A stretch of 43,482 bases of DNA from Prochlorococcus sp. AG-676-M04. Lineage in GTDB: Bacteria; Cyanobacteriota; Cyanobacteriia; PCC-6307; Cyanobiaceae. The notes beneath the pieces were generated by a model. The model was not told the DNA's origin. It saw only the letters and a program-made list of their open reading frames with translations, and made no database searches. Below, one piece after another: positions 1,380-41,640 of the stretch (positions are counted from its first letter, which is position 1; each line of letters starts with the position of its first letter). The stretch covers positions 1 to 43,482 of the forward strand of contig QCUB01000007.1 of the NCBI GenBank assembly GCA_003210895.1, given 5' to 3'. The translations under genes and the position numbers were made by a program.

Positions 1380-1576
1380 GCGAAGTCTTATCAGACTAAT
1401 TGATTGAACTTTATTTTTCGAGTAATCCCATTGTCAGGAATACGCTTCCTATATTTGTAAATTTGCTAAATTTCAGGCGGACTATCAATCATTTAGATTG
1501 CCTCCTAACTCAACATTCATAAATTACTCCTATCTCTACTTTAAGTAAATCCGTAAATATGCTGATTTACTTTTTT
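1380..1576 (+). ncRNA. Candidate structured non-coding RNA with intrinsic terminator
   Basis: There is no useful ORF here, but successive hairpins are visible. AGTCT/AGACT (1384-1397) has a TATC loop. AGGAA/TTCCT (1436-1450) and CAATC/GATTG (1486-1500) follow. A seven-base long-range helix GAGTAAT (1420-1426)/ATTACTC (1523-1529) encloses the last two. The region ends in a strong plus-strand terminator (1543-1576). Both flanking genes point away, so no coding transcript needs that terminator. The 5' end is not determined. It matches none of the tmRNA, SRP, RNase P or glutamine-riboswitch motifs I looked for. It could be one of the known Prochlorococcus Yfr RNAs, which I cannot check. Confidence 0.5.
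1543..1576 (+). terminator. Rho-independent terminator of the candidate ncRNA
   Basis: There is a perfect nine-base stem, AAGTAAATC (1543-1551) with GATTTACTT (1564-1572), and a twelve-base loop. It runs into TTTTTT on the plus strand. The minus-strand reading lacks a T tract, which fixes the direction. It lies about 120 bp before the next plus-strand gene, so it is unlikely to terminate that gene's own mRNA unless by attenuation. Confidence 0.75.
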
Positions 1577-23755: not shown

Positions 23756-23873
23756 ACCTGGCATTGAGCTATTTTCTCAAGGGGCTACCCCCTAAATATT
23801 TTCGCCGCTGATGCGTTTCACAACCGAGTTCGAGATGGATCGGAGTGGTTCCACATCGCCATGAACACCAGGA
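23756..23873 (-). rRNA. rrf: 5S ribosomal RNA
   Basis: Minus-strand sequence begins TCCTGGTGTTCATGGCGATG and ends in GCTCAATGCCAGGT, giving about 118 nt with complementary ends. The core GAACTCGGTTGTGAAACGC and the GGGGGTAGCCCC arm are typical of cyanobacterial 5S. It lies 65 bp after 23S in the same operon. Confidence 0.95.
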
Positions 23874-23879
23874 TAGTGT

Positions 23880-23900
23880 GAACCTTGAGAACTGCATAGA
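23880..23900. repeat. Left arm of the 23S processing stem
   Basis: A 21-base segment here is complementary to 26919-26939 on the other side of 23S with one mismatch, and AGACAATAA (23917-23925) extends the pairing to TTATTGTCT (26900-26908). Together they would form the long helix around precursor 23S that RNase III normally cuts. It includes the ACTGCATAGA-type sequence seen in many cyanobacterial spacers. Confidence 0.75.
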
Positions 23901-23938
23901 AAATTATATAAATTAAAGACAATAAATTAAGTTTATTT

Positions 23939-26812
<2,874 letters not shown>

Positions 26813-26918
26813 AATAACTTCAATAATTGAAGCATCAGCTTAATAGAATTGTTATTTAATGCTTTAGCAAAAATAATAAATCTGCATCATTAAAGATGCT
26901 TATTGTCTTCAAAAATAA

Positions 26919-26939
26919 TCTATGCAGTTGTCAAGGTTC
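26919..26939. repeat. Right arm of the 23S processing stem
   Basis: This arm pairs with 23880-23900 (one mismatch in 21). It lies in the tRNA-Ala to 23S spacer, about 107 bp upstream of the mature 23S 5' end. It was recognised because the left arm reads as the same motif in opposite orientation on the plus strand. Confidence 0.75.
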
Positions 26940-27081
26940 TCTGAAATCAAAGAATAAATATTCAATGAGTCCAGCATCTTATTTATTGAATAAAAAATAG
27001 GAAGCTAGATTCTCTCAGAGCAATTAGGGCACGACACAAAACAAATTCCCTCATTAACAATATGTAAGAGGTGGTATTCAG

Positions 27082-27154
27082 TGGAGGTAAGCGGACTCGA
27101 ACCGCTGACATCCTGCTTGCAAAGCAGGCGCTCTACCAACTGAGCTATACCCCC
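27082..27154 (-). tRNA. tRNA-Ala (anticodon TGC)
   Basis: Minus strand starts GGGGGTATAGCTCAGTTGGT and ends TTACCTCCA, forming an acceptor stem with A as discriminator and no encoded CCA. The anticodon arm has TGC in CTTTGCAAG. The T arm has GGTTCGAGTCC. It lies in the 16S-23S spacer, the usual place for this tRNA in cyanobacteria. Confidence 0.97.
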
Positions 27155-27166
27155 AACATAGAGATA

Positions 27167-27240
<74 letters not shown>

Positions 27241-27362
27241 AGGAAAAGTGATGGGTGTGACCTAGAAAAAACTTAGAAACTGAAATTCTTAAAATTAAGA
27301 ATCTGAGATACCGATCGACCTAAGGTGACAAAATTAATATTTACATTTTGTTGTCTCCCTGT

Positions 27363-28848
<1,486 letters not shown>

Positions 28849-41533: not shown

Positions 41534-41587
41534 ATTCACCCTATCGAAGTGTAGAATATTAAATACAAATAATTTGCTCTTTAGTTT

Positions 41588-41630
41588 GCAGGCTAAAAGC
41601 ATTCCTTTCTAACTACCTTAGGTGGTCTGC
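41588..41630 (+). promoter_or_regulatory. Structured leader before rpsA
   Basis: An ACTACC/GGTGGT hairpin (41612-41617 with 41621-41626) lies inside an outer GCAG/CTGC pair (41588-41591 with 41627-41630), ending ten bases before the rpsA ATG. Known S1 genes are often controlled through their leader, so this hairpin might take part. The stems are short and could be chance. Confidence 0.3.
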
Positions 41631-41640
41631 GTTTTAACAA

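Follow-up and report, generated by a model that had tools for sequence, protein, structure and literature searches.

The window examined here, a stretch of 43,482 nucleotides from Prochlorococcus sp. AG-676-M04 (contig QCUB01000007.1), contains a 552-bp gap between the divergent genes pip (start at 1141, minus strand) and a glycosyltransferase (start at 1694, plus strand), which raises the question of what this gap encodes and whether its product is translated. An earlier sequence-only reading had placed at 1380–1576 a multi-hairpin, independently transcribed RNA, possibly one of the known Yfr RNAs. The answer, developed below, is that the locus holds the Yfr8/Yfr9 RNA pair, and our analysis suggests that one of the two, Yfr8, is a micro-ORF RNA; the pair itself being already known, only this sequence-based reinterpretation is new.

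Identity and extent of the locus

The Rfam search that had been recommended for this region recovered RF02360 (Yfr8/9) on the plus strand at 1287–1514 with 229.4 bits (E 3.6e-55; gathering score 40), across positions 1–226 of the 226-position model, as the sole family at the locus; RF02363 (Yfr11/Yfr16) stayed below its cut-off. In MED4, RF02360 matches 339952–340177 on the minus strand, the strand of Yfr9, and RF02363 falls exactly on the published Yfr11 coordinates (358606–358754). The published coordinates of the pair in that genome are 339952..340241 for Yfr8 and complement(339887..340176) for Yfr9, and alignment of the window with MED4 makes its plus strand Yfr9 and its minus strand Yfr8. 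Both RNAs were mapped in MED4 in 2008 by Northern blot and 5′ RACE (PMC2518516). Hence, judged by sequence, the structured RNA locus between pip and the glycosyltransferase is the known Yfr8/Yfr9 antisense pair of HL Prochlorococcus, a pair that is ordinary for this organism and known since 2008.

The suspected independent transcript corresponds to Yfr9, seen as an RNA in MED4, and the feature is larger than had been proposed (about 1222–1577) and consists of two opposed RNAs of about 290 nt. Yfr9 extends on the plus strand from 1287 to about 1577, as indicated by the RF02360 match and the aligned ends of MED4 Yfr9, and Yfr8 on the minus strand from 1514, the position aligned with the MED4 RACE start at 339952, to about 1222; both 3′ ends are approximate. 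According to the sequence and the published MED4 mapping, the two have separate starts and terminators and run against each other for 228 nt, and the overlap includes the Shine-Dalgarno sequence (SD) and micro-ORF of Yfr8 described below. A likely −10 element of the Yfr9 promoter, TATGAT, is located at 1276–1281 on the plus strand, where MED4 has TATAAT. The window pair resembles that of MED4 in sequence, overlap, lengths, the two opposed terminators and the neighboring pip, whereas the glycosyltransferase neighbor is local to the window: pip adjoins Yfr8/Yfr9 in 110 of 122 loci and the glycosyltransferase in 9. RF02360 scored above its cut-off in 210 of the 266 genomes of the genus, and outside the genus in none of a sample of 400 family genomes.

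At the downstream end of Yfr9, a hairpin (AAGTAAATC/GATTTACTT) followed by a T-run occupies 1543–1577 on the plus strand; it is formed by the inverted repeat of a promoter element (see below) and would terminate Yfr9, whose MED4 counterpart ends there. The hairpin and T-run are thus as originally noted, but the label "textbook" terminator was too strong, since the hairpin is AT-rich and was missed by a consensus terminator scan. The second terminator-like hairpin pointed out at 1219–1248 (AAAAGAGGCCTGT/ACAGTCCTCTTTT) is indeed present and ends Yfr8 on the minus strand; the alignment displays compensatory changes in its stem (pair 1223–1244). The gap holds no long ORF, in keeping with the earlier claim of its lacking any, but that claim overlooked a minus-strand ORF of 8 codons (1492–1466) that follows an SD.

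A conserved promoter element upstream of Yfr8

The inverted repeat at 1543–1577 had been read as a plus-strand terminator alone; its other strand carries a promoter element of Yfr8. Alignment to RACE starts and HL upstream regions delimits this element, AAATCAGCATATTTACGGATTTAC, to 1545–1568 on the minus strand, i.e., −54 to −31 of the Yfr8 start, with the 24-bp consensus AAATCAGCATnnnTACnSATwTAC. Counted from the published 5′ ends mapped by RACE, it spans −54..−31 in Yfr8, Yfr11 and Yfr16 and −53..−30 in Yfr19, and the first three RNAs additionally have an SD at +9 or +10 and an ATG at +22 or +23. The element is found, with at most 4 mismatches, in 139 of 140 distinct HL upstream regions, all 139 of which have a TAnnnT 16–21 bases behind it (about 32 are expected from shuffles), corresponding in placement to the Yfr8 −10 element TAATTT (1521–1526, minus strand; −12 to −7). 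Searching MED4 with at most 3 mismatches yielded eight matches, with one palindromic place counted twice, and the reversed control none; a match within a coding region (MED4 622779) was set aside as probably due to chance. Yfr11, Yfr19 and, to a lesser extent, Yfr16 are reported to decrease in the light and to increase upon DCMU treatment, as a regulator common to them would lead one to expect. Given that Yfr9 ends there in MED4, the inverted repeat probably doubles as Yfr8 promoter element and Yfr9 terminator.

A perfectly palindromic version of the element occurs in the organism's own genome (C10:21496–21519; L373), in MED4 (1326700–1326723; L369) and at a further locus (L383), between two small-protein genes of no assigned family, an arrangement conserved in the genomes examined; Pfam searches with small proteins beside other element sites gave nothing above cut-off. 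At another locus (L380; G024 1295000–1298500), two copies of a related element precede an SD-led 50-codon ORF (MKSLKKWISNLFEGMGYAFVHPIDNSLPPEIGTHSY..) with a PPEI string, for which no Pfam match was found.

A micro-ORF module common to several RNAs

The lead to a 5′ module common to several RNAs came from a weak second match of the stretch 1468–1568 within the own genome. The 5′ end of Yfr8 is GTTGAGTTAGGAGGCAATCTAA-ATG and reads MIDSPPEI followed by a stop codon (1466–1492, minus strand; 8 codons), with the SD GGAGG (1501–1505, minus strand) 8 bases ahead of the ATG. All 82 distinct sequences preserve start, frame and stop, and differ only at codons 3 and 4. The pattern GGAGG-N8-ATGATYGATAG occurs three times in MED4, namely in Yfr8, Yfr11 and Yfr16, and its reversed control is absent from all eight genomes searched. 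The HL versions form three classes, MIDSPPEI (Yfr8), MIDSPPEKFIRLV (Yfr11/16) and MIDSPPEELNYKI, each followed by a stop codon; the last is found in many HL genomes, mostly under the RF02363 cut-off. We found no earlier description of the Yfr8 micro-ORF and SD in a literature search that was not exhaustive, so that the link might already be published. Three further RNAs (MED4 1347611, L370; G023, L377; G001, L382) have the element and a terminator-like end without SD and micro-ORF, and two of them retain the 3′ part of the Yfr11 class.

Related by this module are Yfr11/Yfr16 (RF02363), which are like Yfr8 in promoter element, SD spacing, the MIDSPPE start of the ORF, its fixed distance from the RNA start and the end terminator, but unlike it in having a 13-codon ORF, a different and shorter body and no known antisense partner. 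A sequence model of 125 positions that takes in the element, the SD and the beginning of the ORF (R1) matched 141 of 400 family genomes, distributed over 31 of 59 genera. At the loci outside the genus the parts appear in the same order, with ORFs such as MIDTPPEYQIEAN, MVDTPPEYLTEAI and MDDTPPEYLKEVID, all closed by a stop codon and beginning with ATG or TTG; in one of 23 such loci the start codon was not found. Outside the HL strains the module takes the form M..DTPPE... A second, 277-position model built from the outside-genus RNA (R2) matched 188 of 200 genomes and 33 of 34 genera at 1–9 copies apiece, HL genomes mostly having one. Of 40 R2 copies tested automatically, 37 retain the start, the SD and the D.PP frame, and the remaining three, by inspection, have a related SD-led ORF. 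Genome G470, which we take to be that of Synechococcus CC9605, has seven copies.

These features recall Yfr103, which the account in PMC5069720 describes as exceeding all other transcripts of marine picocyanobacteria in abundance, an RNA of 290–328 nt with seven paralogues in Synechococcus CC9605 that make up 55% of the mdRNA-Seq reads of this strain, an imperfect palindrome at −58..−29 and an enigmatic function; that account places it also in low-light Prochlorococcus and does not list HL strains. The R2-type RNA is similar to it in length and spread and has the palindrome; ten R2-type loci had no match in Rfam, from which Yfr103 is absent. Based on length, spread, palindrome and copy number, the outside-genus SD/M..DTPPE RNA is apparently Yfr103. 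Yfr103 would resemble Yfr8 in the palindrome just upstream of the start, a length of about 290 nt and, if this identification is right, the SD and M..DTPPE module, but differ from it in its body, its many copies and the absence of a known antisense partner. The Yfr103-type 5′ module (element, SD, M..D[ST]PPE) is present at the window locus, R1 matching both, and the conserved Yfr103-type body (CTGCTCCAAC..TCTGCATCGTTTAGGTGCCC) is absent from the window; a single R2 match occurs in the own genome, where the body motif is located on another contig (L002 on C11). This HL copy (C11:30926–31043, plus strand; in MED4 979838–979955, L490) keeps the SD, an ORF reading MIDSLPAISE-stop and the TCTGCATCGTTTAGGTGCCCT motif. 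The string AAGGATCAATGATTTAGGTGCGT is common to long Yfr11-type RNAs (class B with insert, L075, L122) and some Yfr103-type RNAs (L415, L419), which suggests module exchange. Yfr8, for its part, has just the 5′ module in common with Yfr11 and Yfr103, either by descent or by recombination. By analogy, it may also be likened to dual-function RNAs such as SgrS and RNAIII, i.e., structured small RNAs with a short SD-led ORF; the Yfr8 type is set apart by a Pro-Pro ORF of 8–14 codons at the extreme 5′ end and a cis-antisense RNA partner.

Translation versus structure

Does the conservation of this module reflect translation? Yfr8 and Yfr9 could instead be purely non-coding, as they were published (PMC2518516) and as had been assumed for this locus, with the SD-AUG-like stretch kept for structure or by two-strand constraint and Yfr8 acting by base pairing. 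Both strands fold better than dinucleotide shuffles, bearing out the hairpins originally noted: the strong folding of the Yfr8 strand (minus 1514–1222) gives z −3.25 (0/200), that of the Yfr9 strand (plus 1287–1576) z −2.10 (5/200), and G-U pairs are commoner on the former (39 versus 19 cells). Moreover, each of the three HL classes conserves a short SD/Pro-codon hairpin over the SD and start, in which class B exchanges one A-U pair for G-C; some of the constraint on the micro-ORF may come from this hairpin. Relatives lacking the ORF keep element and body, and the length of the peptide is not fixed, ranging from 8 codons to 14 or more. The covariation that had been proposed as a check is present, though modest, for nothing stands out beyond the two best pairs: with a tree-based null modeled on R-scape and all column pairs ranked, at low power for the alignment as a whole, 1296–1307 (E 0.03) is the one pair below E 0.05, followed by 1223–1244 (E 0.67), both inside predicted helices.

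Against a purely structural role, third-position changes prevail at the D, P, P and E codons across clades, start codons interchange among ATG, TTG and GTG, and insertions lengthen the peptide by whole codons while the SD stays in place; the same frame is, moreover, retained in RNAs with differing bodies. Codon tests by column permutation, which allows for relatedness and not for RNA pairing and was applied to sequences found with models including the ORF, gave omega 0.20 for HL codons 2–7 (1/300), 0.095 for the outside-genus DTPPE (0/1000) and 0.269 for all clades (0/1000); within HL class A alone or class C alone there was no signal, and class B alone gave 27/300. Taking both sides together, we regard a wholly non-coding pair as possible and yet rather unlikely; the designation "non-coding" is doubtful for Yfr8, given its conserved SD-led micro-ORF.

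The 2008 study itself proposed a type I toxin–antitoxin system, with a toxic peptide of 44 aa encoded on the Yfr9 strand and Yfr8 as its RNA antidote, a proposal favored by the overlap and by induction upon phage infection (PMC2518516). The exact place of that published ORF was not located, and the one tested here is the longest on the Yfr9 strand, a TTG-started ORF of 40 codons (1400–1522, plus strand). It is probably not a gene: in 42 of 82 distinct sequences a stop follows after 4 codons, and only 24 retain the full length. The ORF that is kept lies on Yfr8 and encodes 8 mostly polar residues, unlike a membrane toxin, and no conserved small hydrophobic toxin ORF was found at the locus, making this proposal very improbable. 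Finally, that there is no independent transcript and the terminator-like hairpins at either end just stop transcripts running in from neighboring genes is exceedingly improbable, as those genes are divergent, the glycosyltransferase is seldom the neighbor and the detection of both RNAs on Northern blots and by 5′ RACE refutes it for MED4.

A proposed mechanism

The best explanation, which on comparative sequence grounds we consider probable, is that Yfr8 is translated from its micro-ORF and that the antisense Yfr9 covers the start codon. Yfr8 would comprise a 22-nt leader with GGAGG, the 8-codon MIDSPPEI with the SD partly in a short hairpin, and, after these, a structured body; the 5′ module of Yfr8 (element, TAnnnT, SD, M.D[ST]PPE) would be that of Yfr11/Yfr16, a diverged form being used by the Yfr103-type RNA of most picocyanobacteria. 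As Yfr9 covers all of the Yfr8 start region, its rise should block Yfr8 translation through duplex formation. In MED4, Yfr9 rises 1–3 h after phage infection and Yfr8 remains constant (PMC2518516). The published decay values are 19.7 min for Yfr8 and 6.9 for Yfr9, and in MED4 each of the two appears as bands of 180, 220 and 290 nt; the 220-nt band on both strands might represent a trimmed duplex of 225 nt.

Translation through Pro-Pro motifs slows down under EF-P shortage. It is conceivable that a ribosome slowed or held by the Pro-Pro-Glu codons at the RNA 5′ end sets the structure or stability of the RNA; within the micro-ORF, PP varies least, with length and C-terminus differing, a pattern more in line with a leader that holds ribosomes than with a peptide acting elsewhere. 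This preference for a held ribosome is the least certain step, a guess that we would give appreciably less than an even chance.

Extending the same reading, we find it fairly likely that Yfr8, Yfr11/16 and the Yfr103-type RNAs belong to a single family of RNAs that conserve a promoter element and are translated from a micro-ORF starting M..D[ST]PPE, one HL branch of which gained the phage-induced Yfr9 over the start codon, with the element doubling as the antisense terminator. If so, a shared promoter element and a shared, translated micro-ORF module would underlie enigmatic RNAs that abound in the most common phototrophs of the ocean and have been called "non-coding", and three names so far separate, Yfr8, Yfr11/16 and Yfr103, would be linked at the 5′ end. 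The published toxin–antitoxin idea would be reversed, Yfr8 being the coding strand and Yfr9 the antisense: the MED4 pair was published as non-coding, apart from a peptide suggested for Yfr9, whereas the conserved ORF seen here is on Yfr8.

Phage-borne copies were also sought: the window locus matched just a 43-base stretch of an Erwinia phage, which was rejected as a candidate, Yfr16 and the outside-genus RNA had no match among annotated phages, and the module pattern had no exact match in IMG/VR contigs. Elsewhere in the window, a cyano-S1 ribosomal protein leader (Rfam RF03151, 62 bits) is located at 41554–41633 on the plus strand, and 23756–28846 on the minus strand is a ribosomal RNA operon in which the 16S and 23S genes flank two tRNA genes.
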